Below, piece by piece: positions 2 through 25,819 of a stretch of 25,819 nucleotides of DNA (the stretch's first letter is position 1; each line of letters starts with the position of its first letter). This DNA is from a virus. The stretch is taken from the IMG/VR virus record IMGVR_UViG_3300009703_001851, positions 1 through 25,819 of that record. One strand, given 5' to 3'. The translations under genes and the position numbers were made by a program. The notes beneath the pieces are model-generated. The model ran no database searches and had not been told where the DNA came from. It was given only the letters and a program-made list of their open reading frames with translations.

Positions 2-856
2 TGGCGCTCTGACTTGCTAACCAACGATGAGAAGTTAGTAGTAAAAAGGTCTTTGGGGTTCTTTGCCGGTTCAGAGTCTTTAGTAGCCAACAACCTTCTT
101 TTGAGTATCTTCAAGTATGTGACCGATCCTGAATGTCGTCAGTATATACTTAGGCAGGCTTACGAAGAAAGCTTGCACAACTTAACAGTCGTCTATTGCT
201 GCGATTCTCTCGGTCTAAAAATTAATGAAGTCTACCAAGCATACAACTCAATACCTAGCATTAAGTCTAAGGACGAGTTCCTAATGAATATCTGTACCGA
301 TATTAATAGGCCAGACTTTAACATCAACACTTTAGAAGGCAAGAGAGAGTTTCTAAGAAACATTATCACCTACTATGTTATCTGCGAAGGAATATTTTTC
401 TTCTCCGGTTTCGCAATGCTTTTGTCCTTTAATAGACAAAATAAACTGCCGGGAGTTGGAGAACAAATTCAATACACTCTTCGTGACGAAAGCTTACATA
501 TTAAATTTGGAACCACTCTGATCAATAGAATTAGAGAGGATGACCCAAAGGTTTGGACTAAAGCTTTTGAAAAAGAAACTCTAGAGCATATAGATAAAGC
601 TATGGAACTTGAACTTGCTTATGCAAGAGATGTTCTTCCAAATGGTATCTTAGGGTTAAACTCTGATATGTTTATTGATTATGTGCAGTATATAGCAAAT
701 CGTAGGCTAGAAGATTTGAATCTACCAAGTCCTTATGAAGATACCAAAAATCCATTTCCTTGGTTAAGTGAAATTATCGACCTAGAGAAGTGCAAGAACT
801 TTTTTGAAACTCGCGTCACTGAATATGCGGTTGGAAACATTGAAGACGATTTCTAA
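2..856 (+). CDS. nrdB: Ribonucleotide reductase beta subunit, class Ic-like (5' partial)
   Basis: Small (radical-generating) subunit of class I ribonucleotide reductase, which with the alpha subunit makes dNDPs for phage DNA synthesis. The frame stays open to the window edge (W-R-S-D precedes the TTG codon at 14), so the gene begins upstream and 14 is not the true start. Counting from codon 14, diiron-type ligands are visible: E21 (in SESLV), E52 and H55 (EESLH), the E of CEGIFFFSGF, and E/H of RDESLHIKFG. The C-terminal tail NIEDDF fits the peptide that docks to the alpha subunit. The residue four after H55, normally the radical Tyr, is V59. The first ligand is Glu rather than Asp, as in chlamydial class Ic R2. 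From memory the whole protein resembles chlamydial R2 closely, with Val where that protein has Phe. The alpha subunit is probably just upstream. Family assignment is firm; class Ic and Mn/Fe chemistry are inferred. Confidence 0.95.
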   Translation, partial: WRSDLLTNDEKLVVKRSLGFFAGSESLVANNLLLSIFKYVTDPECRQYILRQAYEESLHNLTVVYCCDSLGLKINEVYQAYNSIPSIKSKDEFLMNICTDINRPDFNINTLEGKREFLRNIITYYVICEGIFFFSGFAMLLSFNRQNKLPGVGEQIQYTLRDESLHIKFGTTLINRIREDDPKVWTKAFEKETLEHIDKAMELELAYARDVLPNGILGLNSDMFIDYVQYIANRRLEDLNLPSPYEDTKNPFPWLSEIIDLEKCKNFFETRVTEYAVGNIEDDF

Positions 857-2109: not shown

Positions 2110-2468
2110 TGCCTACTTATGATTACTTATGCAACGATTGCGGCCATGAATTTGAGCAATCTCATGGTTTTGGGAAAACCCCTGAGCCATGTTCTTGTGG
2201 AAGTAGTGACATTAAAATAGTTATCAATCAGGCTCCTACTGCATTTGTTAAAGGAGAACCAAAAACTCTTGGTCAACTCGCTGAGGCAAATACTAAAAAT
2301 ATGGGCCGTTATGAACTTGAGGATCACAGAGCAAAGCAGGAAAAAGGAAACCTTAAGAAACAAAAACCAAAAGAGTGGTGGAAGAAGTCAGGCGATGCGA
2401 GTAAGACTGACATAAATAAAATGTCTACATCACAAAAAGCTAAGTATATAAAAGATGGAAAAAAATAA
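2109..2468 (+). CDS. FmdB-type zinc-ribbon protein
   Basis: A 119-aa protein beginning MPTYDYLCNDCGHEFE, the typical start of FmdB-family putative regulatory zinc ribbons. Candidate zinc ligands are C8, C11, C28 and C30; the second pair is CxC (PCSCG) rather than the usual CxxC. The rest is lysine-rich and low in hydrophobics (KKQKPKEWWKK, then SQKAKYIKDGKK), suggesting a basic nucleic-acid-binding tail. It starts by a TGATG overlap with phoH. Such short zinc ribbons often accompany PhoH in phages. Role unknown: regulator or nucleic-acid-binding protein. Confidence 0.75.
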   Translation: MPTYDYLCNDCGHEFEQSHGFGKTPEPCSCGSSDIKIVINQAPTAFVKGEPKTLGQLAEANTKNMGRYELEDHRAKQEKGNLKKQKPKEWWKKSGDASKTDINKMSTSQKAKYIKDGKK

Positions 2469-2721
2469 TTTGGAAGATATACCATTTGAAGATAAAATCA
2501 TAAAGTGCGCCGATTGTGATACCGACTTGTTGAAAATGGTTAAAGTAGCTGACTCAGACAATGAATTTTCTATATCTGCTAACTGTCCTTTGTGTGGTGG
2601 GTCTAGCTGGGTTATAGATTTATCTGGTAAATACTATCAAGCAGCAACAGATGGTTTTCTAATTGGGGAAGCAACAGAAGAAGACGGAAAATTTACAGTG
2701 GAGATCGTTAAAAATGACTGA
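2455..2721 (+). CDS. Zinc-ribbon hypothetical protein (88 aa)
   Basis: Short acidic protein with two CxxC knuckles, KCADC (C18, C21) and NCPLC (C44, C47), spaced like a four-cysteine zinc ribbon. A predicted beta-rich tail follows (SSWVIDLSGKYYQ). It starts 14 nt inside the preceding zinc-ribbon gene, at the ATG in the last codons of that gene, and ends in an 8-nt overlap with the next. No enzyme signature is visible. It could bind nucleic acid or a protein partner; I do not recognise the family. Confidence 0.65.
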   Translation: MEKNNLEDIPFEDKIIKCADCDTDLLKMVKVADSDNEFSISANCPLCGGSSWVIDLSGKYYQAATDGFLIGEATEEDGKFTVEIVKND

Positions 2722-3034
2722 TGACGTGGAACAATTCTTAACCCCTGAAGACACAACCTATATCTATTACGATAAAGATGGACAAGTAATTGAAGAAGAA
2801 ATTGGGTCTTCTTGTGCTTATATAGCCACTGTAAAAGGCAAAAGCTTTAATTATGTAAAATCTATGAGAGGTCGTTTGTTCGACCCTTTTGGTATGGATG
2901 CAAACAAAATTAACTCAGTTAATACAAAGTTTTCCAAAGTTAGCATTGATACTTTTAATCATTACATAAAATATTTAGAGACAAAGCAGAACAATAGTTT
3001 GACTTGGGCCGAGAGGAGTTTCTTAAATGACTAA
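2714..3034 (+). CDS. Hypothetical protein (106 aa)
   Basis: Conserved-looking but unrecognised protein of 106 residues. The ATG at 2714 is chosen because GGAG lies about 10 nt upstream and it forms the 8-nt overlap (ATGACTGA) with the previous stop that recurs in this window; the frame opens further upstream but only inside the previous gene. Visible features are an acidic N-terminus (MTDDVEQFLTPED), a short beta-rich stretch (YIYYDKDGQVIEEEIG), and a helical C-terminus with an ETKQNNSLTWAERSFL segment. No catalytic motif, signal or membrane segment was found. Confidence 0.6.
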   Translation: MTDDVEQFLTPEDTTYIYYDKDGQVIEEEIGSSCAYIATVKGKSFNYVKSMRGRLFDPFGMDANKINSVNTKFSKVSIDTFNHYIKYLETKQNNSLTWAERSFLND

Positions 3035-3344
3035 GAAAACTGGAAAACTAACTAAGGTTGAAAAATTCTATATCGAAAATAACACAGATAAAACCGCTGA
3101 AGAAATTGCCAAAGATTTGAACAGGACTAAATCGTCCGTCGATAAGCATATTAAGACTCTTGACAGAAGCTCTCATACTTCAGAAGCTAAATCAGATCCT
3201 GATGTGTCAGGTCTAATGGGACACAAAGAGGGTAGGGGAGTGACTATCATGACTCCAGCAGCCTCTGAACGTGGTGATGCAACAAGATCTTCTAGAACTT
3301 CTAAGTCTAGACACCAAAACGCTATACATACGATTAAAAAATAA
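3027..3344 (+). CDS. Small helix-turn-helix protein
   Basis: A 105-aa basic protein. Residues about 9-44 read as a helix-turn-helix: FYIENNTDKTAEEIAKDLN, then RTKSSVDKHIKTL. This is the pattern of DNA-binding HTH domains in which AEEIAKDL is the first helix and SSVDKHIK the recognition helix. The remainder is polar and Ser/Arg/Thr-rich (GDATRSSRTSKSR), probably disordered. A strong Shine-Dalgarno (GAGGAG) about 9 nt upstream suggests good translation; the start forms an 8-nt overlap (ATGACTAA). It may be a phage transcription regulator, but the target cannot be told. Confidence 0.65.
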   Translation: MTKKTGKLTKVEKFYIENNTDKTAEEIAKDLNRTKSSVDKHIKTLDRSSHTSEAKSDPDVSGLMGHKEGRGVTIMTPAASERGDATRSSRTSKSRHQNAIHTIKK

Positions 3345-3829
3345 TGACTGTGTTCTTAAGCAAAGAATTAGATAGCTATATAAATCAGTACGCTGATTCT
3401 AATCCAATATGGATAGCTGAACTTTCTAACGGAGAAACTGTTTACCAAGACGACGGTAGACCTAATGTTGAACCCGAAAGTGGCTGGCTTAGAATGAAGC
3501 AATACTGTGAAGAAAATAACTTGCATATAGAAAGTATGAAAGTCAGAAACCGTTCTCATGTAGAAGATATTGGTTCTGGATATGACGGTTATTTTTTTTG
3601 CAAAGGAGCTGGAGCTTTACTATTTCAAGATCTAACAGTTCATACATTTAATATAGGTCATGTTGAAAATGGCAAACTACATGTAAGAACTTGGAGACTT
3701 CCTGAATTGATTCCAGAGCGTTTTGAAGAGAGGAGCCTTTACGATGCTCCTTATGAATGTTTGATTACGAAGAAAGGCACATTGGATGAACAAAAATTAC
3801 AAGCACAAGACAACAGGACAAGCATGTAA
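3344..3829 (+). CDS. Hypothetical protein (161 aa)
   Basis: Unrecognised soluble protein of 161 residues, starting by a TAATG overlap. The N-terminal part has a beta-hairpin-like PIWIAELSNGETVYQDDGRP and a Trp/Met-rich helix (SGWLRMKQYCEENN). The middle has a glycine/aromatic stretch (GSGYDGYFFCKGAG), and the end is polar. No catalytic signature, membrane segment or signal peptide. Its last 44 nt overlap the next gene in another frame, which is longer than most overlaps here. Confidence 0.55.
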   Translation: MTVFLSKELDSYINQYADSNPIWIAELSNGETVYQDDGRPNVEPESGWLRMKQYCEENNLHIESMKVRNRSHVEDIGSGYDGYFFCKGAGALLFQDLTVHTFNIGHVENGKLHVRTWRLPELIPERFEERSLYDAPYECLITKKGTLDEQKLQAQDNRTSM

Positions 3830-4211
3830 TGCCGCTCAATACATTGCTGAAATGGTTTGCCTCAGAGAAGCTGAAAAACAAAGGGTCGGTAGACCAGCTT
3901 ATGCCTTATGGAATACTGATAAATGGCAAAAGAAATTTAAAAGCCAAGTAACCAAAGCTTACACTCTTCTCAAAAAATATAGCGATAAAGCTATTATCAA
4001 TGCCTTGAACTCTTACAAAGGCAAAAACATATATTCTCTGCGTGTCAAATTCCTTGAACCTATAATTAAAAAGGAACAAGAGTCTATTGACAAGCTAGAG
4101 GCGACAGAAATAAAAGAAGTTAAGTACGAAGACAATACTATGCAAAAGCCAAGAAAGAGTTTTGGTAAGAAAAGTTTGTTTTCTAAACTGGAGAATCTGG
4201 ACAATGAGTGA
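3786..4211 (+). CDS. Hypothetical basic helical protein (141 aa)
   Basis: Lysine-rich, mostly helical protein of 141 residues. The core NAAQYIAEMVCLREAEK, then AYALWNTDKWQKKFKSQVTKAYTL and a second helical region around KYSDKAIINAL looks conserved in style, but I cannot assign a family. The acidic/basic C-terminus is probably flexible. The ATG at 3786 has AAGG upstream and overlaps the previous gene by 44 nt. The position directly before recA, with an 8-nt overlap, hints at a recombination or replication accessory role. That is only context. Confidence 0.55.
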   Translation: MNKNYKHKTTGQACNAAQYIAEMVCLREAEKQRVGRPAYALWNTDKWQKKFKSQVTKAYTLLKKYSDKAIINALNSYKGKNIYSLRVKFLEPIIKKEQESIDKLEATEIKEVKYEDNTMQKPRKSFGKKSLFSKLENLDNE

Positions 4212-5271
4212 CGCAGCATTAAAAACCATTACTAAAAAATACGGAAATATATTAGTGAATGGAGCTGATGTATTTGAAGAACTGCAAGACATGCAGGTTA
4301 TTCCTGTAAGTCCATCTCTCGACTACGCTCTTGGTGGTGGCTTTCGAGAGGGAACTTGGATTCAGATGATTGGAGATCCAAAGTCTGGAAAAACAACCAC
4401 AGCTTTACAATTCGCTGCGAACTGTCAGAAAAAAGAGTATGGAGAAAGACCCATATTTTATGTGAATGTAGAAGGCAGGTTAAGCACGAAGAACTTTGAA
4501 GGAGTTCATGGCTTAGATGCTAGTAAGATCACTGTAGTACAGTCTGAAACAGAAACCCTTAGTGCAGAAAAGTATCTAGGTGCTATAGAAAAGATAGTAA
4601 AGGCCCATCCTAACTGTGTAGTCATTATTGATTCAATATCTAGCTTCATAGCACAGAAAGACTTAGACGAAGAAGTAAGAGGCGATTACAGGCCGGGAGT
4701 TCCCAAGATACTGTCTAACTTCTGCAAGAAGATGAGCAGTGTGGTTCCCAAACAAAGAGCTATCATTATCATGATTACACACTTTATTGCTAATACTGGC
4801 GGCATGGGAAAGAAAAAAGTGGCCGATGGTGGCGTAAAGGTTCGCTATCAAGCAGATACGATATTGGAAATTGCTTGGATTCAAGCATGGAAAGAAAAGA
4901 GTGACGGAAGACAAATCGGACAAGCACTTCATTGGAAAGTAGTCACTTCTGCTCTTGGGGGATTTGTAGGAGCCGAAGCTATTGGATGGCTTCGGTATGG
5001 AACAGGTATTGATTACAAGCAAGAACTGTTCGATCAAGCAAACGACTTCGATTTGATTTCCGCAGCCGGAGCTTGGTACACATGCGATTTTTTAGTCGAT
5101 GATCCGAAGCTTATAAAAAAACTTTTGGAGGCCGAAGGAATCGAAAAAGATGATGAAGAAAAAATTACTAAGTTGGTCAAGTTTCAAGGTCAGCAAAGAC
5201 TCAGAGCTTTTCTTGATGAACACGACTTATGGCCTGCTTTACAAAACTCATTGAAGGAAATGTTGTTTTGA
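4204..5271 (+). CDS. recA: RecA-like recombinase
   Basis: Strand-exchange ATPase that forms filaments on ssDNA for recombination and recombination-dependent replication (RecA/UvsX role). The 355 residues contain LDYALGGGFREG (39-50), Walker A GDPKSGKT (57-64), Walker B VVIIDS in the middle, and a C-terminal segment with the RecA pattern RYGTGIDYKQELFD followed by AAGAWYTCDFL. The length matches bacterial RecA, and the GxGID/GAWY pattern is more RecA-like than T4 UvsX-like. The ATG at 4204 is preferred over an upstream in-frame start at 4162 because GGAG lies upstream and it makes an 8-nt overlap (ATGAGTGA) with the preceding gene. The stop is shared with the TTG start of a nuclease-like gene. 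Confidence 0.93.
   Translation: MSDAALKTITKKYGNILVNGADVFEELQDMQVIPVSPSLDYALGGGFREGTWIQMIGDPKSGKTTTALQFAANCQKKEYGERPIFYVNVEGRLSTKNFEGVHGLDASKITVVQSETETLSAEKYLGAIEKIVKAHPNCVVIIDSISSFIAQKDLDEEVRGDYRPGVPKILSNFCKKMSSVVPKQRAIIIMITHFIANTGGMGKKKVADGGVKVRYQADTILEIAWIQAWKEKSDGRQIGQALHWKVVTSALGGFVGAEAIGWLRYGTGIDYKQELFDQANDFDLISAAGAWYTCDFLVDDPKLIKKLLEAEGIEKDDEEKITKLVKFQGQQRLRAFLDEHDLWPALQNSLKEMLF
5254..5258 (+). promoter_or_regulatory. Shine-Dalgarno deciding a TTG start
   Basis: AAGGA lies 9 nt upstream of the TTG at 5268. It supports that TTG over the in-frame ATG at 5229, which would overlap recA by 43 nt. The TTG forms a TTGA stop/start overlap with the recA TGA. Confidence 0.6.
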
Positions 5272-10497: not shown

Positions 10498-11485
10498 TCT
10501 TGGAACTTTGGAATTTTGTCAGCAAAAGTATTTTTTGCAGTACAATCTTTCGTTCAAAGATAAAACTAATGCAAAAGCCTTGATGGGTACTATTACTCAT
10601 AAAGTTATGCAAACTCTTGGAGACAAGAAAGTTGCAATGAATAAAGGTTTTGACATCGTAGAAGATGAGGAAACCGGAAGAAACCTGACTCTAGAAGAGT
10701 GCGACGATCTTGAGCTTTTGAATAACATAGCTTTTGATTATTACACAAATGCTTTTCCAGAAGTTAATATTGGAGAAAAAGAAAAGAGGCAATGTCTTCG
10801 TTGGGCAGAGAAGGCAGTAGCATACCAAGACGGATTGCTAGACCCTAGAAATCAAAATGTATTTGCTACCGAGTTGTTTTTTGACATAGAGATAAAAAAG
10901 CCTTGGGCAAAATATAAGTATGAGTTTGAAGACCAGACGATTGAAGGATACCTGTCAATCAAAGGCACTGTAGACCTAATCCTTAAACAGGGAGAAGGCT
11001 ACTATGAGATACTAGATTACAAAACCGGAAAACGGCTAGACTGGGCGACCGGAGAAGAGAAGACTTACGAAAAGCTACAGAAAGACACGCAGCTACTTCT
11101 TTACTACTACGCTCTTAAAAATATGTATCCAGAAAGAGAATTCTCAGTAAGCATATATTACATCAATGCTGGCGGATTGTTTTCAATGGTATTTGACGAA
11201 AGCGATTATGAAAAAGCTGAATCCATACTAAGGAAAAAATTTGAGCAGATAAGAGACATTCAACAGCCTAAACTTCTTTCTAATGAAAACAGACACTGGA
11301 AGTGTCAAAAGCTTTGCAAGTTCAGCGGCGAATATGAAGACTCAGGCAAGAGTATATGTCAACATATAAGAGACGAAGTTAAAGAAAAAGGCGTAGTCAA
11401 AGTCGTTGAAGAGTACGGAAAAATTGAAAAGATCGCCACTTATGGAGATGGCGGCGGAAGATTAGCAGAAGATAATAAAAAATGA
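10469..11485 (+). CDS. RecB/Cas4-type PD-(D/E)XK exonuclease with four-Cys cluster
   Basis: A 338-aa nuclease of the RecB-like family. Motifs in order: N-terminal SSLGTLEFCQQKYFLQY (family start, containing C17), motif II GTVDLI with D169, motif III ILDYKTGK with D183 and K185, then QLLLYYYAL (motif QxxxY). Four cysteines, C17 near the start and C279, C283 and C297 near the end (KCQKLC and ICQH), resemble the one-plus-three arrangement that holds a [4Fe-4S] cluster in Cas4, AddB and Dna2, though the spacing is looser. The likely role is 5' or 3' end resection, supplying ssDNA for RecA. It overlaps the preceding nuclease by 29 nt and ends ATGA with dnaE. Family firm; cluster type inferred. Confidence 0.85.
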   Translation: MIVCYHRSSSLGTLEFCQQKYFLQYNLSFKDKTNAKALMGTITHKVMQTLGDKKVAMNKGFDIVEDEETGRNLTLEECDDLELLNNIAFDYYTNAFPEVNIGEKEKRQCLRWAEKAVAYQDGLLDPRNQNVFATELFFDIEIKKPWAKYKYEFEDQTIEGYLSIKGTVDLILKQGEGYYEILDYKTGKRLDWATGEEKTYEKLQKDTQLLLYYYALKNMYPEREFSVSIYYINAGGLFSMVFDESDYEKAESILRKKFEQIRDIQQPKLLSNENRHWKCQKLCKFSGEYEDSGKSICQHIRDEVKEKGVVKVVEEYGKIEKIATYGDGGGRLAEDNKK

Positions 11486-13395
11486 GTTGGACACCTTTAC
11501 ACTTACATACACACTACAGTCTTTTAGATGGTCTTAGTAAGCCCTCACAGGTCGCTGAGCGATGTTCTAATCTAGGCTATACCTCCTGCGCCTTAACCGA
11601 CCACGGTACTATATCAGGCGCTGTGGCCTTTACACAGGCAATGAAGAAAAAGAATATCAAACCTATTCTTGGGTGTGAGTTTTACCTAAGCCAGCAAGAT
11701 TGCAAAATAAAGTCCGACGAAAATAGAAGCCTGAGTCATTTATGTGTGCTTGCTAAAAACAGAAAAGGTTGGGACAACCTGATCCAAGCAGTCTCTAAAA
11801 GCAATGACGAAGAAAATTACTATTACAAGCCAAGACTAGACCTTGCCGAATTAAACCTTTTTGCAGATGGCAACTTAATATCTTACAGCGGGCATCTTGG
11901 TAGCGACTTAGCAAATGCAATATTCGTAGACCCAAAGTCTGCTTATAACGCAAAAACAGAAGATGAAGCCAAAAGATACATACATCCAGAATGGGTAGAC
12001 CAAGTATTAAAAATTGCAAATAGATACAGGTCTATATTTGGTAAGGAAAACTTCTTCATTGAGATACAAGCTATTGACCAAGATAATTCTCCAGCAGCGA
12101 AGTTAGTAGTTCAAGGTCTACGGTATATAGCTAAAAAGTATAAATTCCAAACTGTAGCTACGGCAGATTCACACTATCCAGAAAAGAAAGACGCAAACGA
12201 TCAATTATTACTGCTTTGCTCTGCATTGAAAACAACCCTGCCTAAGATCAAGAAAAAGCTAAAAGAATCTGGAGAAGCTGCATTTGCTGGTTTTCTAAAG
12301 TCTAATAACTTTCATATTCCATCCCTTGAAGAAATACAAAATGTAAATACTTCACAGGAGATAGAAAACTCAATGCTAATAGCTAGTATGTGCGAAGACT
12401 ACAACATACTAGGCAAACCTATGCTTCCTAAGTTCAAGTGTCCCAAAGACTTTTCAGAAGATCAATATCTAAGACACTTATGCAGAGAAGGTTGGAAAAG
12501 CAGATTAGCACCCATAGGAAAAGTTAACACAGAGCAAAGCAAGCAGGTGTACGCAGACCAAATCAAGAAAGAGCTTGATGTCATTAGCGAAGCAAACCTA
12601 GCTGGCTATTTCTTAATAGTTAGAGATATTGTCAATAGTGTGGTTGATAAGAATCACATCCCCGGTCCGGGAAGAGGTTCTGCCGCTGGATGTTTAGTAT
12701 CATACTTAGTAGGAATAACACAAGTTGATCCAATTGATTATGGATTATTGTTTGAGCGTTTTTATAACGCAGGAAGAAACACTGATGACCATGTGTCTTT
12801 ACCAGACATTGATATAGACGTTCCTGCTAATAAAAGAGACGAGACAATAGATTACATACGCGGCAAGTACGGAAGTGAAAAGGTTGGACAAATGGTGACA
12901 TTTGGAAGACTGCAAGGCCGAGGCGCAATTAAAGAAGTCTTGAGAATGAATGAAGCTTGTGGTTATGACCAAATGAATGAAATAACAAAAAGTCTTCCAC
13001 ATGAACATGAAGTATCCGATCAATTGGCAGAGATGGACAATCCATCTGTGATTAAATGGACTCTGATGAATCAGCCGGAGACACTTCGTGGCTACTGTAG
13101 ATTAAATGATGATGGTGTTCTTGAAGGCGACTATGCTAAATTTTTCGATCAGGCTATGCGAATAGAAGGGACTTTCAAATCGCAGGGCAAACACGCTGCT
13201 GGTGTAGTTATATCCTCTCATGATCTTAACGATGTTTGCCCAATGGTAAGGGACAAGAGAGGTAGCGAGAAGATAGCTGGAATGGAAATGAACGACTTGG
13301 AGTCTATGGGGCATGTAAAATTTGATATTCTTGGTATTTCACTAATGGATAAAATGATGGGAATTAGAGACCAACTAAAGGAAAGACATGGATAG
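11482..13395 (+). CDS. dnaE: DNA polymerase III alpha, N-terminal half of split DnaE
   Basis: N-terminal 637 residues of a bacterial-type replicative polymerase. The PHP domain has metal-binding residues in place: H7 and H9 (HLH), D16 (LLDG), H41 (TDHG), E66 (GCE) and ADSH. The palm follows: GPGRGSAAG (395-403), LPDIDIDV with D442, D444 and D446, GKHAAGVV, and KFDILG with D615, the equivalent of E. coli D555. The ORF stops 22 residues later (ending KERHG). It therefore holds all three catalytic aspartates but lacks the fingers, HhH and OB regions, which a separate gene at 14270 supplies. The break falls in the loop after the last catalytic strand/helix, with no intein. The start is coupled to the exonuclease gene as ATGA. 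Confidence 0.93.
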   Translation: MSWTPLHLHTHYSLLDGLSKPSQVAERCSNLGYTSCALTDHGTISGAVAFTQAMKKKNIKPILGCEFYLSQQDCKIKSDENRSLSHLCVLAKNRKGWDNLIQAVSKSNDEENYYYKPRLDLAELNLFADGNLISYSGHLGSDLANAIFVDPKSAYNAKTEDEAKRYIHPEWVDQVLKIANRYRSIFGKENFFIEIQAIDQDNSPAAKLVVQGLRYIAKKYKFQTVATADSHYPEKKDANDQLLLLCSALKTTLPKIKKKLKESGEAAFAGFLKSNNFHIPSLEEIQNVNTSQEIENSMLIASMCEDYNILGKPMLPKFKCPKDFSEDQYLRHLCREGWKSRLAPIGKVNTEQSKQVYADQIKKELDVISEANLAGYFLIVRDIVNSVVDKNHIPGPGRGSAAGCLVSYLVGITQVDPIDYGLLFERFYNAGRNTDDHVSLPDIDIDVPANKRDETIDYIRGKYGSEKVGQMVTFGRLQGRGAIKEVLRMNEACGYDQMNEITKSLPHEHEVSDQLAEMDNPSVIKWTLMNQPETLRGYCRLNDDGVLEGDYAKFFDQAMRIEGTFKSQGKHAAGVVISSHDLNDVCPMVRDKRGSEKIAGMEMNDLESMGHVKFDILGISLMDKMMGIRDQLKERHG

Positions 13396-13609
13396 GAAGA
13401 CTAGCTACAGACAAAACGTAAAGGACAAAATTAATTCAGGGAGATACGTTGATTACAAAAGCTTATCAATTTGTAGAATCAATGACTTCTATCCATTAAT
13501 GCATGGAAAAATAAGATACCAAGTACACTCTCATTTTTTCAGCAAGCTATATGAAAATATTGACGAAGCGCTGGACAAATTTTTTGAGATTAGAAGGAAA
13601 ATAAAATGA
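13388..13609 (+). CDS. Small basic protein between dnaE halves (73 aa)
   Basis: A 73-residue basic protein encoded between the N-terminal dnaE half and the exonuclease. AAAGGA lies upstream and an 8-nt overlap (ATGGATAG) joins it to the dnaE stop; its own stop overlaps the next start as ATGA. The C-terminal part, RYQVHSHFFSKL then YENIDEALDKFFEI, loosely resembles the last strand and helix of AP2-type DNA-binding folds (strand, then D/E-EAxxxF). That match is weak. Because it is fixed inside the polymerase locus, it could bridge the two polymerase halves or bind DNA. Function unknown. Confidence 0.55.
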   Translation: MDRKTSYRQNVKDKINSGRYVDYKSLSICRINDFYPLMHGKIRYQVHSHFFSKLYENIDEALDKFFEIRRKIK

Positions 13610-14289
13610 ATTACAAGGACATTATTGTTTTTGACTTTGAAACAGGCTCCAGAAACCCAGAAAAAACACAGCCTGTACAAATTGCGGCTGTCGCTATACA
13701 CGGTCGTAAGTTGACTGTTCAACCAGACGGATATTTTGAAAGTTTAATGCGGCCTATATTAGACGACGAAGAAGCAATCAAAATGGGTCTAGATCCTATC
13801 GAAGACGAAGCATTAGCCGTAAATGGCAAGACAAGAGAAGAACTCGCAAAAGCTCCTTCAGAACGAACTGTATGGAAAAAGTTCACAAACTTTGTAAATA
13901 AATACAACTGGAAAGGAACTCCTTACTTCGCTCCGATTGCGGCGGGTTATAATATTGTTGGTTTTGACATGCCTATTGTTCAAAGAATGTGTGAGCTATA
14001 TGGGCCAATCGACAAGAAAACAGGGAAGCAGACTCTCTTTAATAAAATTCACAGAATTGATGTGATGGATAATGTCTGGATGTGGATGGAAAATAATGCA
14101 GATGTTAAATCATTGAGTATGGATTCCATGCGAGACTTATTTGGCATGAGCAAAGAAAACGCTCATGATGCTTTGCAAGACGTTAAGGATACAGCCAACT
14201 TAATGATTGGTTTTATGAAACTATATAGAAGAGTTGCGCCGAAGATTAAATTTGAAAAGGCTTTTGCTGATGGAAACCTCCACATTTGA
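13606..14289 (+). CDS. DnaQ-like 3'-5' exonuclease (DEDDh)
   Basis: Proofreading-type 3'-5' exonuclease of the DnaQ/epsilon superfamily, 227 aa. Motif I is VFDFETG with D10 and E12, motif II lies in GYNIVGFDMPIV (N and D), and motif III is NAHDALQDVKD with the H and D of the DEDDh type. It has a strong AGAAGGAAA Shine-Dalgarno and ATGA coupling to the 73-aa ORF. Its last 20 nt overlap the C-terminal dnaE piece. Encoded between the two polymerase halves, it is very likely the proofreading subunit of this polymerase, like epsilon, which binds the PHP domain in E. coli. It lacks a long C-terminal tail carrying an obvious clamp- or alpha-binding motif. Confidence 0.88.
   Translation: MNYKDIIVFDFETGSRNPEKTQPVQIAAVAIHGRKLTVQPDGYFESLMRPILDDEEAIKMGLDPIEDEALAVNGKTREELAKAPSERTVWKKFTNFVNKYNWKGTPYFAPIAAGYNIVGFDMPIVQRMCELYGPIDKKTGKQTLFNKIHRIDVMDNVWMWMENNADVKSLSMDSMRDLFGMSKENAHDALQDVKDTANLMIGFMKLYRRVAPKIKFEKAFADGNLHI
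14256..14260 (+). promoter_or_regulatory. Shine-Dalgarno for the C-terminal dnaE gene
   Basis: AAAGG lies 9 nt upstream of the ATG at 14270, inside the exonuclease coding sequence. It supports independent initiation of the second polymerase half at 14270 rather than at the in-frame ATG 14234. Confidence 0.55.
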
Positions 14290-15862
14290 ACCTCTTGAAC
14301 TTGGATTTGAAGATGAAAAAGCTTGGGATCTAATATGCTCAGGAAAAACAAAAGGTGTTTTTCAACTAGAAAGCAACTTAGGTAAGTCTTGGGCTAAAAG
14401 AGTTCAGCCAAAAAACATTGAAGAACTATCTGCTCTAATATCAATTATTAGACCGGGAACATTGAAGGCTATTGTAGATGGCAAATCAATGACCCAACAC
14501 TATGTTGATAGAAAGAATGGGGTGCAAGAAATAACTTATCTTCACCCATCCCTTGAGCCAATCCTTAAGAGGACTCAAGGAGTTCTTGTGTATCAAGAAC
14601 AATCTATGCAGATTGCACAACAGTTAGCAGGGTTTAACCTTCAAGAAGCCGATAATCTACGCAAAGCTATCGGTAAGAAAAAAGCAGACCTTATGGCTAA
14701 AGTCAAAGAGGACTTTCTAAAGGGAGCCTCCGAACAAGGCACTATCACGACAGAAGAAGCCGAAGAAATCTTTAGCTGGATTGAGAAGTCTAGTCGTTAT
14801 GCCTTTAATAAATCCCACGCTGTATCTTACGCAATATGTGCATATTGGAGCGCTTATGCTAAGGCTCACTTTCCGCTAGAGTTTTATTGTAACTACCTCA
14901 TTCATTCTTCTGGCAAGCCAGATCCGCAACAAGAAGTTAGAGACCTAGTTAACGATGCAAAGAATTTAGAGATATATGTAAATCCTCCATCAATAAAAGC
15001 TCTGAATACCCAAACAGACATAATCGAAGATCGCATACATTTTGGTTTAATAGACATAAAATCTGTTGGAGCAAAGCAGGTTGATAAGTTTAGAGATGCT
15101 ATAGTGTATTTAGAACAAACTTTAGGCAAGCAGCTATGCGAAGTTAATTGGTACGAGTTTCTTGTTTTAGCTTCACAGAAGATCAATTCAAGAATGTTAA
15201 CAGCTTTGATATCAGTAGGGTTCTTTGCGGATCTTCCAGAGAGTAGACAGCAAATGTTAGACGAGTTTGATACTTGGTCAAACATAACTAAGAAAGAAGC
15301 TGAGTGGGCAGAAGACAACTTTGAAAACTATGACAACCTAGTAGATCTACTAAGAGTCATGTCTCCTGTCAAAAAGGACGGAGGAGCAACCTTTAACTCA
15401 AAGCGTTCTCAGATTATCTCCGATTTAGTAATCCAATGTGAAAATCCATCTTATTCGCTAAAAGATGATCCTGAATGGGTTATTAGAACCGAAGAAAATT
15501 ACTTAGGAATAGGACTTACATACTCAAGAGTAGAAGCTTATGACACAAGCTTGGCAAATACTACTATCAAAGAGTTTATTAATGGTAAAAGGGGCAATGT
15601 CAAAATGGCCGTTACCATCAATGAAGTTAAGAGATACACCGCTAAAAAAGGTAAAGCGATTGGTCTTGAGATGGCATTTTTATGCGTTGAGGATACGACA
15701 GGAACTATGGATAGTGTTACTGTTTTTAGTGACCAATGGAACTCATACAAAAATATTTTATATGAAGGAAATAACGTAATATTGATTGGACAAGATTCAA
15801 AAAAGAAAAGATACCAATTAGATGACGGTTTCATAGTTAATGAAGTTATTGAGTTGCGTTGA
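14270..15862 (+). CDS. dnaE: DNA polymerase III alpha, C-terminal half of split DnaE
   Basis: The 530-residue C-terminal part of a DnaE polymerase. It begins with LELGFEDEKAWDL, which aligns with the segment directly after the last catalytic-Asp region of normal DnaE. Then follow GVFQLES (29-35), ISIIRPGTLK, YQEQSMQIAQQLAGF, ADNLRKAIGKKK and YAFNKSHAVSYA (177-188), all fingers-domain hallmarks. HhH-type IDIKSVGAKQ and a C-terminal OB fold complete it. It ends after the OB domain, so a tau-binding domain is probably absent, and I see no clear QxxLF-type clamp motif. The two halves sum to 1167 aa, close to E. coli DnaE (1160). The gene has its own Shine-Dalgarno and overlaps the exonuclease by 20 nt. 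Confidence 0.92.
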   Translation: METSTFEPLELGFEDEKAWDLICSGKTKGVFQLESNLGKSWAKRVQPKNIEELSALISIIRPGTLKAIVDGKSMTQHYVDRKNGVQEITYLHPSLEPILKRTQGVLVYQEQSMQIAQQLAGFNLQEADNLRKAIGKKKADLMAKVKEDFLKGASEQGTITTEEAEEIFSWIEKSSRYAFNKSHAVSYAICAYWSAYAKAHFPLEFYCNYLIHSSGKPDPQQEVRDLVNDAKNLEIYVNPPSIKALNTQTDIIEDRIHFGLIDIKSVGAKQVDKFRDAIVYLEQTLGKQLCEVNWYEFLVLASQKINSRMLTALISVGFFADLPESRQQMLDEFDTWSNITKKEAEWAEDNFENYDNLVDLLRVMSPVKKDGGATFNSKRSQIISDLVIQCENPSYSLKDDPEWVIRTEENYLGIGLTYSRVEAYDTSLANTTIKEFINGKRGNVKMAVTINEVKRYTAKKGKAIGLEMAFLCVEDTTGTMDSVTVFSDQWNSYKNILYEGNNVILIGQDSKKKRYQLDDGFIVNEVIELR

Positions 15863-16278: not shown

Positions 16279-16756
16279 TCAAAAGATATCTAAACAAGAA
16301 GAGCTTGTAGAAGACAGTCTAATTCGTGAACATTACGGATTGGTTGTCTCTCAAGCTCTTTCTTTTTTTAATGACCCTAATTTTGAAGACTATATACAGG
16401 CTGGATTAATTGGTCTCTTAAAAGCTATAAGAACTCATGATAAAGAAAAAGCTATATTCAGTACCTACGCGATTGTTTGTATAAAAAACTCTATCTCCAA
16501 ACTTAGAAAAAAATTAAATAGACCAAGTTTAACAAATAAGATGGAGGAATTTGACACACAATTTCCTTATAATAGCAAGGATGCTATCTTAGACTATTTG
16601 CCGGAATACTTGCCGGAAGAGTATGTATTCATAATAAAAATGAGACTTGAGGGATACACAAACAAAGAAATTTCTGACTATACATCTAGCACAAAAAAAG
16701 AAATATCTGAAAAAATAAGACTTATAATACAAGTGTTAAGAGACGCAAATTCATGA
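16181..16756 (+). CDS. Phage RNA polymerase sigma factor (sigma-70 family)
   Basis: Directs RNA polymerase to phage promoters. Sigma region 2 is clear: REHYGLVVSQALSFF, FEDYIQAGLIGLLKAI and IFSTYAIVCIKNSISKLRKK. A C-terminal region-4-like HTH follows (LPEEYVFIIKMRLEGYTNKE, then SDYTSSTKKEISEKI). Region 3 is missing, as in small alternative sigmas. The frame has no ATG before region 2. The candidates, all inside ssb, are TTG 16154, TTG 16181 (AAGGA 12 nt upstream) and GTG 16190 (GGA 9 nt upstream). I list 16181, but the start is uncertain and the overlap with ssb is about 90-125 nt. The stop couples to the first glycosyltransferase as ATGA. It probably serves middle or late transcription. Confidence 0.8.
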   Translation: MTKVEKKDTQQNLESKSSNSLIKQKSDKQSGNNQKISKQEELVEDSLIREHYGLVVSQALSFFNDPNFEDYIQAGLIGLLKAIRTHDKEKAIFSTYAIVCIKNSISKLRKKLNRPSLTNKMEEFDTQFPYNSKDAILDYLPEYLPEEYVFIIKMRLEGYTNKEISDYTSSTKKEISEKIRLIIQVLRDANS

Positions 16757-18390
16757 GAAAAAAAAGAATATTATTTTGCGGAGAAGCAACGTACTTAAAC
16801 ACTGGGTATGCTACATATCTCAGAGAGATTATGAAAAGGCTTCATGCAACAGGAAAATATGAGTTAGCTGAATTCGCAAGTTATGGTTCCGATACAGACC
16901 CTAAAAGAGCTGAGATACCTTGGCATTTTTTTGGTAACTTGCCTGACAAAGAAAACGAATCAGACAAAGAAAAATATGACTCAAACCCAATCAACCAATT
17001 TGGAGCTTGGAAATTTGAGTCTGTAGTTTTAAGCTTCTTGCCTGATATTGTTTGTGATATCAGAGACTTTTGGATGTTTGAATACCAAGAAAGATCTCCA
17101 TTTAGACCTTTCTTTAATTGGGTCATAATGCCAACTGTAGATGCTAATCCACAAAACGAACAATGGCTATCAACTTTTTCTAGTGCCGATGCTGTTTTTA
17201 CATATTCTGATTGGGGAGCGGAAGTTCTAAACAAAGAGTCTAATGGTGTCATCAAGTGTTTAGGGTCAGCGCCTCCCTCTGCGGACGAAGCATATAAACC
17301 AGTCAAAGATAAAAGAGCGCATAAATCAGAAATGGGTTTTGATCCAGATTCGCAGATAATCGGAACTGTGATGAGAAATCAAAGAAGGAAGTTGTTTCCT
17401 GATTTGTTTGATTCGTTTAGCAAGTTTTTGCAATCGACCAATAAAGACAACGTGTATTTGTATTGTCACACTAGCTATCCAGATCTTGGATGGGATATAC
17501 CAAAGCTATTAAACCAATACAAAATATCAAGCAAAGTGCTATTCACTTATTCTTGTGCAGAATGTGGTCACAGTTTTCCTAACTTCTTTTCTGATGCAAG
17601 AACGAAATGTCCAAAATGCGGCAACTTTACCGCGTCTTTTTCAAATGTGCAAAAAGGAGTGTCATACGAATATCTTTCTAAGGTAATGAACGTTTTTGAC
17701 TTGTATATACAATATTCAAACAGTGAGGGTTTTGGCCTTCCTCAAGTAGAAGCTGCTGCATGTGGTGTTCCAGTGATGAGCGTTGATTACTCTGCCATGA
17801 GTAGCGTAATAAGGAAATTGGGAGGAACTCCTCTAAAACCCAAAGCGTTATACAACGAACTAGAAACAGGTTGTGACAGAGCTGTTCCTGATAATGATAA
17901 TACAGCAAAACAAATTGAAAAGTTTTTTGAGATGCAAGAAACTGAGAGAATGACGCTGGCAAAGAACACTAGGCTCAACTTTGAGAAATATTATCAATGG
18001 GACAAAACAGCCAAGAAGTGGGAAAATTATTTTGATTCAGTGGAATTAAAGCCATCAGAAGAAACATGGTTGTCTGCTCCTAGAATTCATCAGCCCAGAA
18101 ATGGCAACACTGAAAACATGTCAAACTCAGAATATGCCAGATGGTTAATCGTAAATGTGTTAGGAGAACCAGAAAAGCTTAACACTTATTTTGAATCTAG
18201 ACTAATAAGAGATTTGAACTATGCAATGTTTATTAACGGAATGGGCGATGCCTATCTGAATGAAGATTCCTTTAAGTTTCTAAAGCCTTTATATGAGCCA
18301 TTCGATAGGCAAAAAGCGTATGATATGATGGCTGACATTTGCGAACTGAAAAACTTTTGGGAAAACAAGAGAAAAGAAGTTATACGATGA
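16753..18390 (+). CDS. GT4-like glycosyltransferase with internal zinc ribbon
   Basis: GT-B fold glycosyltransferase (545 aa) that would transfer a sugar from an NDP-sugar. The N-terminal ILFCGEATYLNTGYATYLRE is a GT4-type acceptor-domain start. The donor domain carries the EX7E motif EGFGLPQVE (E325 to E333) followed by AAACGVPVMS. Between the two, residues 268-289 contain a four-cysteine knuckle (CAEC and CPKC), a zinc ribbon embedded in the enzyme, which is unusual. After about residue 430 a helical C-terminal extension of roughly 110 residues has no recognised domain. It is coupled to the sigma gene (ATGA). Acceptor unknown: virion protein, glycan or DNA base are all possible; host-surface or virion decoration is most likely. 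Confidence 0.85.
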   Translation: MRKKRILFCGEATYLNTGYATYLREIMKRLHATGKYELAEFASYGSDTDPKRAEIPWHFFGNLPDKENESDKEKYDSNPINQFGAWKFESVVLSFLPDIVCDIRDFWMFEYQERSPFRPFFNWVIMPTVDANPQNEQWLSTFSSADAVFTYSDWGAEVLNKESNGVIKCLGSAPPSADEAYKPVKDKRAHKSEMGFDPDSQIIGTVMRNQRRKLFPDLFDSFSKFLQSTNKDNVYLYCHTSYPDLGWDIPKLLNQYKISSKVLFTYSCAECGHSFPNFFSDARTKCPKCGNFTASFSNVQKGVSYEYLSKVMNVFDLYIQYSNSEGFGLPQVEAAACGVPVMSVDYSAMSSVIRKLGGTPLKPKALYNELETGCDRAVPDNDNTAKQIEKFFEMQETERMTLAKNTRLNFEKYYQWDKTAKKWENYFDSVELKPSEETWLSAPRIHQPRNGNTENMSNSEYARWLIVNVLGEPEKLNTYFESRLIRDLNYAMFINGMGDAYLNEDSFKFLKPLYEPFDRQKAYDMMADICELKNFWENKRKEVIR

Positions 18391-19499
18391 AAGTCTTGTA
18401 TGTAGGCTGTTATAGAGATGGTACGGGATGGGGAAATGCGGCAATTGATTATATATTGTCTCTAGATGCTGCTGGAGTAGATGTCGTACCTCGCGCAATT
18501 AAGCTAAACAATGAGCAGGTAGAATTACCTAGTAGGATTGTTGAGCTTGAAAATAAAAGCTCTAGCGGTTGCGACGTTTGTATACAACATATTTTGCCAC
18601 ATTTTATGGAGTATAGCAACAAGTTTAAAAAGAATATAGCCCTGTACGCAACAGAAACAGATAACTTTATAGACTCCGATTGGGCTAGAAGAATAAATTT
18701 GATGGATGAGGCTTGGGTGATTAACAACCAAATGGCTCAAGCGTCAAGCAAAAGCGGCGTGACGGTTCCCATAAAAGTTATTCCCCATGCTACTAATTTC
18801 TCAAAGTTTGAAAAAACTTATGACAAGCTAAGCTTTCCATCAGCAAAAAACAACTTTGTATTTTATACAGTCGCAGACTGGAACAAAAGAAAAAATATTG
18901 AAGCCTTTATAAGAGCTTTTCATACTGAGTTTGACGCAGACGAACCAGCTTCTCTTTTAATAAAAACCAGTCAGCACGGAGTAGAGCCTGAGCAATTAGC
19001 ATTGAAGGTTCGGGATATGTGCAATGCTGCAAAAACAAAAGTTAAAAAGTATAAAAACATAAATGAATACAAGGAAGATCTGATAGTAACAGATTTCACT
19101 TCTGAAAAAGAGCTTTACAGACTTCATAACTCTTGTGATTGTTTTGTCATGCCTAGCTTCGGTGAAGCATGGTGCATACCTGCTTTTGACGCAATGGGAT
19201 TTGGAAAAACTCCTATTTGTACAAATATAGGTGGAATGTCTGACTTCATAGGACATGGAGGCTTTTTAATTGAAGGAAGAATGGAACCTGTGTATGGAAT
19301 GATGAATACTCTTCCAAATCTTTTTACGCCAAATGAAAATTGGTGTTCTATTGACATACAGGGTCTAATGTCTGCAATGAGACATGCATATGAAAATTCT
19401 GAAGAATTAAAGAACATGAAGCAAATTGGATTAAAGCAGGCTTATGAATATCGCTATGAAAAAATTGGAGCTTTGATGAAGGAGACCATAAATGCCTAA
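18387..19499 (+). CDS. GT4-like glycosyltransferase
   Basis: GT-B glycosyltransferase of 370 aa. It starts MKVLYVGCYRDGTGWGNAA, a family-1/4 N-terminal Rossmann pattern; then VFYTVADWNKRKNIEAFIRAF (donor-domain start) and GEAWCIPAFDAMGFGKTP, an EX7E-like motif with E260 and Asp at 268 in place of the second Glu. The ATG at 18387 forms ATGA with the previous stop; an in-frame opening upstream (18339) lies inside that gene. It sits second in the sugar block, with no membrane segment, so it is probably a soluble cytoplasmic enzyme. The donor sugar cannot be read from the sequence. Confidence 0.85.
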   Translation: MKVLYVGCYRDGTGWGNAAIDYILSLDAAGVDVVPRAIKLNNEQVELPSRIVELENKSSSGCDVCIQHILPHFMEYSNKFKKNIALYATETDNFIDSDWARRINLMDEAWVINNQMAQASSKSGVTVPIKVIPHATNFSKFEKTYDKLSFPSAKNNFVFYTVADWNKRKNIEAFIRAFHTEFDADEPASLLIKTSQHGVEPEQLALKVRDMCNAAKTKVKKYKNINEYKEDLIVTDFTSEKELYRLHNSCDCFVMPSFGEAWCIPAFDAMGFGKTPICTNIGGMSDFIGHGGFLIEGRMEPVYGMMNTLPNLFTPNENWCSIDIQGLMSAMRHAYENSEELKNMKQIGLKQAYEYRYEKIGALMKETINA

Positions 19500-20505
19500 T
19501 GCAATGTCTTCTATATTAAGAGCTTCAACTAGAGATCCAAATGAAAAGCTGAACGTATTGACTTTTCCTACACATGAAAGATATGAAACTGGATTAGCCA
19601 AAACTGGACACAACTTTTATGCGTATAGAGCAGAAGGAATAAAAGATTGGAATGAGACATACGCCCCTCTTCCAGAAAATTACACTCTTCTAAATCCCAA
19701 TATGGGAAATGCTCAACTTCCAACGCATATCGACTTTGATTTGGTTTTATCTCAAAACAAGTTTGGTCAATTTCAAAAGGCTCACGAGCTTGCAAAACTT
19801 CTTCATTTGCCTTTGGTCAGCTTAGAGCATACCCTCCCTGTTCCAGAATGGGGTGACAATATAATGAACGCAGTTCAAAACATGAGAGGTGATGTTAATA
19901 TATTTATATCAGCCTTTAGCATAGGCGAATGGGGATGGGAAGACAAACAAGACACTGCTGTCATTACTCATGGTATAGACACAGATTTATTTTGCACAAC
20001 AGATAAAGAGAGAAGTGATGAAATTTTGTCTGTTGTAAATGATTGGGTAAATAGAGATTGGTGTTGTGGCTTTAGCATTTGGCAAAGAGTCATAGACGGT
20101 TTACCATACAAGGTGGTTGGCGATACTCCGGGTTTATCTGAGCCAGCTGCTTCAACTGAAGAGCTTGTCGCCACCTACCAAAACAGTAGGATATTTTTGA
20201 ATACTTCAACAATATCTCCAGTTCCTACAGCTCTAATGGAAGCAATGGCTTGTGGATGCGCAGTTGTCTCCACAGATACTTGTATGATTCCTGAAGTAAT
20301 AGAGCATGGGGTAAATGGATTCATAACCAATGATGAAAATCAAATGAAGCAGCATTTGGTGGATTTATTAAATGATGAAGACATGTGTAAAGAAATTGGC
20401 GAAAGTGCAAGAAAGACTATAGTAGAGAACTATTCAATGGATACATTTGTTTCAAACTGGGACAAAACTCTTAGACTTGCGGCAAATGTGCCGTTTCGAG
20501 GTTAA
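19492..20505 (+). CDS. GT4-like glycosyltransferase
   Basis: A 337-aa glycosyltransferase with a GT-B-type C-terminal donor domain: VPTALMEAMACGCAVVSTDT, then IPEVIEHGVNGFITND, the usual GT4 sequence with E/A in the EX7E region. The N-terminal half is compact (LNVLTFPTHERYETGLAKTG, then LPLVSLEHTLPVPEW). GAAGGAGA just upstream and an 8-nt overlap (ATGCCTAA) with the previous gene set the start. No signal peptide or transmembrane segment. Together with its neighbours it suggests a stepwise glycan assembly. Confidence 0.85.
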   Translation: MPNAMSSILRASTRDPNEKLNVLTFPTHERYETGLAKTGHNFYAYRAEGIKDWNETYAPLPENYTLLNPNMGNAQLPTHIDFDLVLSQNKFGQFQKAHELAKLLHLPLVSLEHTLPVPEWGDNIMNAVQNMRGDVNIFISAFSIGEWGWEDKQDTAVITHGIDTDLFCTTDKERSDEILSVVNDWVNRDWCCGFSIWQRVIDGLPYKVVGDTPGLSEPAASTEELVATYQNSRIFLNTSTISPVPTALMEAMACGCAVVSTDTCMIPEVIEHGVNGFITNDENQMKQHLVDLLNDEDMCKEIGESARKTIVENYSMDTFVSNWDKTLRLAANVPFRG

Positions 20506-20506
20506 T

Positions 20507-20971
20507 ATGAAGTTAAGAATAACAGTAGGCGCTGAGGATAAACTCAATGGGTATACAAATGTAGACCCAGTGAGTCAATTTGACGGTCTAAATACAGATC
20601 TTAGAAATTTAGATGCTATTGTTTCAGACGCAGAATGTTCTGAAATTTTAGCTGATGAGGTGATTGATTTTATCCGGCAGGAAGAAGTCTACCCAATATT
20701 AGACCATTGGATAAATAAGCTTAGACATAATGGAAACATATTTGTATCTTTTTATGACACTAGGCAAATAGCAAAAGCTTTTTTTAGAGATAAAATTAGT
20801 TTAGACGAATTTAACAAGATAGTGCATGGAACCTTCTCTGCCCCTTGGGACATAAGATTAGGACATACTACTGTCGAGGAAGTATCAAAATTTTTACAAA
20901 CAAGAGGTCTAGTTGTTACTAAAAAGACTCTAGATGGATTAAAAGCTACTATTGGAGCTACGAGGCCATGA
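20507..20971 (+). CDS. SAM-methyltransferase-fold protein, degenerate SAM loop
   Basis: A 154-aa protein matching the small class I methyltransferase layout common in phage sugar clusters. ITVGAEDKLNGYTNVDP stands where family members have a G-C-G-x-K...NVD SAM loop, then TDLRNLDAI, a DEVIDFIRQEEVYPIL stretch where others have a His-Val-Leu-Glu-His helix, and LRHNGNIFVSFYD in place of LKPGG. The glycine loop is altered (GAED instead of GCG), and both the EH pair and the PGG turn are lost, so catalysis is doubtful. The ATG at 20507 follows the previous stop by one base with GAGG upstream. It may be a structural or regulatory relative, or a diverged enzyme. Confidence 0.65.
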   Translation: MKLRITVGAEDKLNGYTNVDPVSQFDGLNTDLRNLDAIVSDAECSEILADEVIDFIRQEEVYPILDHWINKLRHNGNIFVSFYDTRQIAKAFFRDKISLDEFNKIVHGTFSAPWDIRLGHTTVEEVSKFLQTRGLVVTKKTLDGLKATIGATRP

Positions 20972-21783
20972 AAAAAGAAGATATAAATAAAGAGTTTAAT
21001 CTCAACTACGAAGACAAAGAAAATGCAGATGAGCAGGTAGAAAGCAAATGTATTGATTGTGTTTTTGAGACGCTTCCCAAACTATGCGAACATAATCAAA
21101 TTGAATTTAAATCGGAATCAGACATTCGTCTGGTTAGAGAAGAAGACAATCAAGAACATTATAGAGTCAAAGGTTTTTGCAAATGGTTTAGAGACGAACT
21201 ATGGAAGACTGCAAATCAAGGAAAAGACTTTAAGTCGATTGTAGAGAAAGAAAATGAGATAAAGTTGTCGCTGATTATCATCGTTCGAGATGACGATCAA
21301 GATTTCCAAAAGACAATTGATTCTATAAAAGAGCAAAAGATTCCTGTGGGCAGGATATTATTTTCCATCGTATCAGATGATGTAGATTATTTTGATTTCA
21401 TATTGAATGTCAGAGAAGTATCTGAAGAATCAGAGCTTGACATAAAAGTGCAGAAGGTAACAGATCCTAAAATTAACAAAGAAGACCTTTTAATAATTGA
21501 TGAAGGTTTCAAAGAAATAAAAAGCGGCTACTATTCTGTTTTTGATTTGGGATATGAGATACCGGAAAATTGGACATACAAATTGAACAAAGCAATTAAT
21601 AAAGACAACAAAAAAGTTGCCTATATAAGAGCGTCTGATGGAGTAAATGGCATTACTGCTCAAACGATGATACACGCATTTTTATATGGTAATAGAGGCG
21701 CTCCTCTTGAGAAAAAATTAAAAGAGGGGTTAGAATACGATAAAAATGATACTCAAATGATTTTTGAATGGGAAGAATTATAA
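20968..21783 (+). CDS. GT-A/GT2-like protein with N-terminal Cys cluster
   Basis: A 271-aa protein. The N-terminal region holds C28, C31 and C40 (KCIDC, KLCEH) and a later FCKWFRDELW cysteine, probably a metal-binding cluster. The second half begins IKLSLIIIVRDDDQDFQKTI, like the first strand and helix of GT2 GT-A enzymes, and has DSIKEQKIPVGRILFSIVSDD. No clear DXD metal motif or ED acceptor motif follows in order, so the glycosyltransferase part looks degenerate. It is coupled by ATGA to the gene before and by TAATG to a normal GT2 enzyme after it, so it may act as a partner of that enzyme. Confidence 0.6.
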   Translation: MKKEDINKEFNLNYEDKENADEQVESKCIDCVFETLPKLCEHNQIEFKSESDIRLVREEDNQEHYRVKGFCKWFRDELWKTANQGKDFKSIVEKENEIKLSLIIIVRDDDQDFQKTIDSIKEQKIPVGRILFSIVSDDVDYFDFILNVREVSEESELDIKVQKVTDPKINKEDLLIIDEGFKEIKSGYYSVFDLGYEIPENWTYKLNKAINKDNKKVAYIRASDGVNGITAQTMIHAFLYGNRGAPLEKKLKEGLEYDKNDTQMIFEWEEL

Positions 21784-25382: not shown

Positions 25383-25819
25383 GGTTTTAGTTACTGGTGG
25401 TGGAGGTTATGTTGGCAATGTACTTTGCAGACATCTTTTAGATAATGGTTATAAAGTAAAATGCATAGATAACTTTCATAAAGGTCAGTGTGACGCAATT
25501 ATCCCATTAGCAACAAGTCCAAACTTTGAATTTGAATATGGGGATGTAACAGTTTTAAAACAAATGAAGGAGGCTGTTCATGGGTGTGACGCTATTATTC
25601 ATCTCGCTTCTATTGTTGGCTTTCCGGCTTGCAAATCCCAACCTGCTCTGGCGACGGCGGTAAACGTAGAAGGCACTAGAAACATGCTTTTTGCGAGAGA
25701 AGCTTATAATCCAAAAATGCCTTTCGTCTATGCGTCCACAGGAAGCGTTTACGGTAAGGTAGAGGGAAGATGCACAGAAGAGTCCCCGCTTAACGCTGTG
25801 TCTCTCTACGGCGTTAATA
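25375..25819 (+). CDS. NAD(P)-dependent nucleotide-sugar epimerase (SDR), 3' partial
   Basis: Second extended SDR sugar enzyme; only the first 148 codons are in the window. VLVTGGGGYVGNVLCRHLL is the NAD-binding loop, followed by CIDNFHKGQCD, FEYGDVTV, IIHLASIVGFPAC and YASTGSVYG. The last codons read SLYGVN, where Tyr is the catalytic Tyr and a Lys should follow immediately beyond the edge (YxxxK). The AAGGA upstream and the 8-nt overlap ATGACTAA with the first epimerase set the start. It resembles UDP-glucose 4-epimerase-type enzymes in style. Confidence 0.88.
   Translation, partial: MTKVLVTGGGGYVGNVLCRHLLDNGYKVKCIDNFHKGQCDAIIPLATSPNFEFEYGDVTVLKQMKEAVHGCDAIIHLASIVGFPACKSQPALATAVNVEGTRNMLFAREAYNPKMPFVYASTGSVYGKVEGRCTEESPLNAVSLYGVN

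Follow-up and report, generated by a model that had tools for sequence, protein, structure and literature searches.

The window (the whole stretch of DNA analysed, 25,819 nt, positions 1 to 25,819 of the IMG/VR virus record IMGVR_UViG_3300009703_001851) begins with a plus-strand gene at positions 2–856, which is open at its 5′ end in the ORF list and encodes 284 amino acids of a class I ribonucleotide reductase (RNR) β subunit (NrdB, R2). These are the C-terminal 284 of 335 residues; the full-length NrdB, starting with MKKTKEI, is present in a second IMG/VR contig (L001) and is identical to the window protein over the shared 284 residues. The protein scored 222.2 bits against Pfam PF00268 (Ribonuc_red_sm; cut-off 33.6) and 410.8 bits against NCBIfam NF005550 (cut-off 309), and matched the small subunit family PHROG 86. 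A phmmer search of the PDB returned Chlamydia trachomatis (Ct) R2 as the best match by sequence (1syy, E 3.8e-105), followed by 2ani, the Ct F127Y mutant, which carries Tyr in the column of V63. The alignment to 1syy ran without gaps around the sites of interest, where an offset of 64 converts window into Ct numbering, and placed the following features, the viral set being the relatives described below:

2–856, + strand: NrdB (R2, β subunit), C-terminal 284 of 335 residues, from ORF, Pfam/NCBIfam and phmmer evidence; 5′ end cut at the window edge
74–76, + strand: GAG, E25, first metal ligand, a Glu (Ct E89); direct read, alignment and viral set
167–169, + strand: GAA, E56, metal ligand (Ct E120), preceded by E55 (Ct E119, second sphere); alignment and viral set
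176–178, + strand: CAC, H59, metal ligand (Ct H123); alignment and viral set
188–190, + strand: GTC, V63, at the radical-Tyr position (E. coli Y122, Ct F127); direct read, alignment and viral set
194–196, + strand: TAT, Y65, Tyr two residues after V63 (Ct Y129); viral set
383–385, + strand: C128 (Ct M192), adjoining ligand E129; viral set and cellular class Ic
386–388, + strand: E129, metal ligand (Ct E193); alignment and viral set
473–475, + strand: Y158 (Ct Y222); invariant across the viral clade
476–478, + strand: T159 (Ct I223, E. coli I234, radical-insulating pocket); viral and cellular sets
488–490, + strand: E163, metal ligand (Ct E227), preceded by D162 (Ct D226, second sphere); alignment and viral set
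497–499, + strand: H166, metal ligand (Ct H230); alignment and viral set
824–826, + strand: Y275 (Ct Y338), C-terminal radical-transfer Tyr; alignment, invariant in the viral set

Reading the codons directly bore out both residues on which the first-pass annotation had rested its case, the Val at the position of E. coli Y122 and the Glu as first metal ligand. Three scans of viral contigs yielded 235 loci, with contigs overlapping between scans. Keeping hits whose alignment spanned at least about 270 residues of the query, and counting identical proteins once, left 126 distinct full-length proteins. In the first scan, none of the 81 loci carried Tyr at site 127 in Ct numbering (76 Val and 5 Ile, the window's own locus counted), and the 126 proteins carried Val in 103 and Ile in 23 cases. 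Since all 126 proteins have Val or Ile and all 81 loci lack Tyr, V63 is more than an accident or a sequencing error. The first ligand was Glu in every one of the 126 proteins, and all six metal ligands, E119, D226, Y222 and Y338 were likewise invariant, while site 129 varied (Tyr 100, Thr 22, His 4). The codons at site 127 were GTA (48), GTT (30), GTG (19), GTC (6), ATT (12), ATA (6) and ATC (5). A single base change in these codons would give Phe, Leu or other residues, none of which occurred in the 126 proteins. On the tree, Val and Ile have been exchanged at least eight times, the clade keeping one or the other throughout.

The E-E-H-E-E-H-E-D pattern of first- and second-sphere residues, found in the window and all 126 viral relatives, has NrdBzc (class Ic) as its sole match in the table of PMC6370689, in which classes Ia and Ib have Asp as first ligand, the seventh place is Cys or Ser in class Id and Asp in Cyano SP, and class Ie lacks the carboxylates. 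The same source defines class Ic (NrdBzc) by a Phe, Leu or Val where the radical Tyr would be, a rule that V63 fits; the 23 relatives with Ile lie outside its wording, and the replacement of Phe by Leu, Ile or Val is already documented in R2c according to PMC3824934, citing Hogbom 2010. The class Ic-type reading of the first-pass annotation was thus supported, with NF005550 above its cut-off, Ct R2c as the best PDB match by both sequence and fold, Glu as first ligand and a site without Tyr. Class Id (NrdBi) was rejected, with Glu at the seventh site rather than Cys or Ser, and Val or Ile rather than Tyr, in 126 of 126 proteins; class Ie (NrdFe) was rejected on the retention of carboxylate ligands 2, 4 and 5 in all of them, and R2lox on the presence of the C-terminal Tyr and a best R2lox model score of 44.2 bits against a cut-off of 274.

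Among the cellular relatives, taken as the best 80 of at least 571, the first ligand and site 127 were Asp/Tyr in 48, Glu/Phe in 31 and Glu/Leu in 1, with no mixed case. A viral scan from a cellular class Ic query gave 43 loci, of which 11 were partial and 2 had no alignment and were left out; the remaining 30, with both sites aligned, comprised 24 Asp/Tyr and 6 Glu/Phe and again no mixed case. Given that neither set holds a mixed case, Glu at ligand 1 and loss of the Tyr go together across the NrdBz group. Of 232 Chlamydiae genomes searched, 155 had a match, and the 20 loci fetched from these were all Glu/Phe. Neither the best 80 of at least 571 cellular relatives nor the 20 Chlamydiae loci contained a Val or Ile carrier, so that rarity in cells is a statement about these two sets. 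The first-pass remark that Val is the rarer residue therefore stands for these cellular relatives and fails for the viral clade, where Val is the rule (103/126), and it is further qualified by the record of Val and Ile for class Ic in PMC3824934 and of Val in PMC6370689. No isolated phage of the Glu/Val type turned up among the phage records looked at; in tblastn searches, one of which listed 60 of its 3,581 matching records, the closest NrdBz records among the matches listed were from Pseudomonas and Acinetobacter, and the one read from each (L082, L083) was Asp/Tyr. Six IMG/VR contigs (L344, L345, L346, L347, L351 and L380), one of them 435,946 bases long, carry a Glu/Phe class Ic NrdB; they could represent genuine phages with a class Ic enzyme, or host sequence that entered the collection.

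We built a tree from the window and 29 of the 126 viral proteins (88% clustering), 32 Glu-type cellular proteins, 10 of the 48 Asp/Tyr proteins, 2 phage proteins and 1 outgroup. With the two trait columns removed, the unrooted tree set the 30 viral rows on one side at 100/100 and the Tyr rows on one side, with all Glu-type rows on the other, at 75/69, the cellular class Ic proteins lying in between. A topology separating cellular class Ic alone from viruses and Tyr rows together was rejected (p-AU 0.026). When a Listeria phage served as outgroup, the Glu-type rows grouped at 80/98, except for a Guyparkeria protein (L160). The stem of the viral clade was long, at 0.84–0.85 changes per column. 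Placement of the viral proteins with class Ic thus has moderate evidence in the tree and strong evidence in the site pattern. The Guyparkeria NrdB is of the Glu/Phe type and was placed beside the Asp/Tyr group, not with class Ic, which might mean that the class Ic site arose twice.

An AlphaFold2 model of the window NrdB, built with 51 fetched relatives, reached a mean pLDDT of 84.4 and a pTM of 0.84, with the last 24 residues disordered. The top Foldseek matches in the PDB were all Ct R2c entries (E 1e-20), and structural comparison with the highest-ranked Foldseek chains gave a Z of 37 and an r.m.s.d. of 1.7–1.9 over 271–278 residues at 53–54% identity. A Trp column that we take to be that of Ct W51 was invariant in the alignment (A3). 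An upstream NrdA gene on the same strand was present in 111 of the 114 loci with at least 2.4 kb of DNA on that side, the window itself containing no NrdA, and the NrdA proteins have the Tyr dyad in 111/111 and the two tail Cys in 110. In L005, a relative at 99% identity, an 818-aa NrdA is encoded one gene upstream (2392–4848) and overlaps the start of the β reading frame. The PDB chain closest to NrdA was 5im3_A, presumably from P. aeruginosa. The β subunit ends in DDF (window 845–853), as it does in most viral relatives, with the Phe in 107 of 126 viral proteins and the other 19 having no alignment there, and the cellular C-termini in A3 differ; this ending could be the signature of a matched tail for NrdA binding.

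According to PMC7615503, the tyrosyl radical of E. coli R2 is insulated by a hydrophobic pocket made up of F208, F212 and I234, and ligand spacing identifies F133, F137 and T159 as their equivalents in the window. The two Phe positions were Phe in all 126 viral proteins, whereas the I234 equivalent was Thr throughout the viral set (126 of 126) and Ile throughout the cellular one (80 of 80, the best of at least 571). In addition, Ct site 192 was Cys in 125/126 viral proteins (Met in 31/32 cellular class Ic), site 198 was Phe in 118/126 (Tyr in 32/32) and site 88 was Ser in 122/126 (Ala in 31/32), and Gly at site 87, Asn at site 124 and Ile at site 220 were each present in all 126 viral proteins. 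To judge by these residue patterns, the viral pocket seems to have been rebuilt as one unit, and we take this change to be the most informative addition of the analysis.

Taking these observations together, we think it probable that the gene encodes a phage class Ic β subunit of the NrdBz group whose oxidising equivalent is stored in the dinuclear metal centre, most likely as Mn(IV)/Fe(III), and not on a Tyr, with Val or Ile merely filling the pocket that the Tyr left. In Ct R2c, the active cofactor is Mn(IV)/Fe(III), and turnover converts it to the reduced Mn(III)/Fe(III) form (PMC11883743). By analogy, a reduced metal pair held by the observed ligands E25, E56, H59, E129, E163 and H166 would react with O2, and with no Tyr at position 63 the oxidised cluster would take one electron through the usual path, comprising the Trp at the position of Ct W51, Y275 and two Tyr of NrdA. 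The electron flow along these residues, all of which are present, would generate the cysteine radical and lead to ribonucleotide reduction. We infer the metal identity and the function from Ct R2c, and likewise the changed sensitivity to metals and reactive oxygen species put forward in the first-pass annotation. Our literature search turned up no class Ic enzyme carrying Val or Ile that has been characterised, and a search on F127Y gave no result.

A metal pair could also serve as oxidant in another make-up, either a Mn pair, as in class Id, or an Fe pair, which we consider unlikely. Class Id likewise has Glu as first ligand (PMC6370689), and in one analysis of PMC12918982 the Ic-like viruses were anti-correlated with predicted iron, which would fit a Mn-rich cofactor; the same preprint says, however, that no single trace metal accounts for the Ic-like pattern. 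Against this make-up, the seventh residue is Glu as in class Ic, not Cys or Ser as in class Id, in 126/126 proteins, class Id retains the Tyr, and the sequence search and the fold search both rank Ct R2c first, with the class Id structure 6cwo appearing far down either list.

That the enzyme instead forms a tyrosyl radical on another Tyr, chiefly Y65, seems very improbable to us, and the objection that the first-pass annotation had raised against its own reading, a radical site at this Tyr two residues on (its Y61), does not hold. Although Y65 is kept in the nearest relatives of the window and in Ct R2 (Y129), the position is occupied by Thr (22) or His (4) in 26 of 126 viral relatives that are identical at the other sites. 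Moreover, 46 of the 48 Asp/Tyr enzymes, which have the normal radical Tyr, have a Tyr there too, and all 126 viral proteins have Thr in place of the Ile that helps to shield the radical. The missing radical Tyr could suggest a non-working RNR subunit, either a decayed gene or an R2lox-like oxidase, yet none of the 126 proteins departs from the full ligand set, the path residues or the C-terminal Tyr, NrdA adjoins in 111 of the 114 loci and every R2lox model falls far below its cut-off, making this reading hardly credible.

The preferred reading, a class Ic subunit with a metal-centred oxidant, has close counterparts. Ct R2c (NrdBzc) shares with the window the six ligands, E119, D226, Y222, Y338, the W51 position and the fold. 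The window clade differs from it by Val or Ile for F127, Thr for I223, Cys for M192, mostly Phe for Y198, Ser for A88, Gly for T87, Asn for T124, Ile for F220 and the DDF C-terminus, the substitutions being judged on the 32 cellular Glu-type relatives. Because the second shell is unlike that of cellular class Ic at several places, the properties of the cofactor need not carry over. It is conceivable, though we doubt it, that the phage clade with Val or Ile represents a variant of class Ic that works differently, in which the second shell (Val or Ile at 127, Thr 223, Cys 192, mostly Phe 198 and Ser 88) was rebuilt once the need to shelter a tyrosyl radical was lost, giving a metal preference, redox potential or activation route other than the chlamydial one.

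NrdBza of gammaproteobacteria and of the Pseudomonas putida and Acinetobacter phage records resembles the window protein in belonging to the NrdBz group, in its 44–53% identity and in having nrdA and nrdB adjacent, but pairs an Asp at ligand 1 with a Tyr at the radical position, making it class Ia by the published rule. The Cyano SP/class O RNR of cyanophage P-SSP7 is likewise a phage enzyme with the Tyr lost and Glu as first ligand (PMC6370689), but its seventh site is Asp and its β subunit, of about 240 aa, is much shorter.

A bioRxiv preprint of February 2026 (PMC12918982) describes 269 marine viral α sequences nearest NrdAz, with β subunits carrying Ile or Val, under the name ‘Ic-like’, and keeps them apart from class Ic, for which its references had Phe or Leu. 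That clade and the window clade share the marine viruses, the replacement of Tyr by Ile or Val, NrdAz as nearest group and adjacent α and β genes; compared by description, through the residue pair and the NrdAz neighbourhood, the window very probably belongs to it. The available part of the preprint does not give the first ligand, the pocket changes or a β-subunit tree, all of which come from the present analysis. Our data argue for placing the ‘Ic-like’ clade with class Ic. New relative to that part of the preprint are the retention of Val or Ile through its repeated exchanges and the invariant Thr-for-Ile change, and this change and the strict Val/Ile restriction are the parts that deserve a bench test. 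As a small branched aliphatic residue occupies the radical-Tyr position across diverse and widespread marine phages, the chlamydial Phe is not special, and the clade supplies naturally occurring versions of the shielding pocket with which to probe what sets Mn/Fe selection and stability in class Ic. Following the argument made for P-SSP7 in PMC6370689, such an enzyme would allow dNTP synthesis that presents no target to tyrosyl-radical scavengers.

Elsewhere in the window, the DNA polymerase III α subunit is split. The gene at 11482–13395 encodes the PHP and palm parts (PF02811, PF07733), and a second gene at 14234–15862 encodes the protein from the fingers onward (PF17657), with a small ORF (13388–13609) and an RNase_T-type exonuclease gene (13606–14289) between the halves; no intein was noticed by eye in this region. 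Against phage records, the split polymerase gave matches of only 31–36%. The halves are also apart in contigs G006 and G007 and in G008, the last with a stop, and both parts lie in one frame of 855–864 aa in the farther relatives G012 and G013. By eye from the ORF list, the regions at 16753–23265 and 24441–25818 hold many consecutive genes that look like glycosyltransferases and, after them, two resembling NAD-dependent epimerases.
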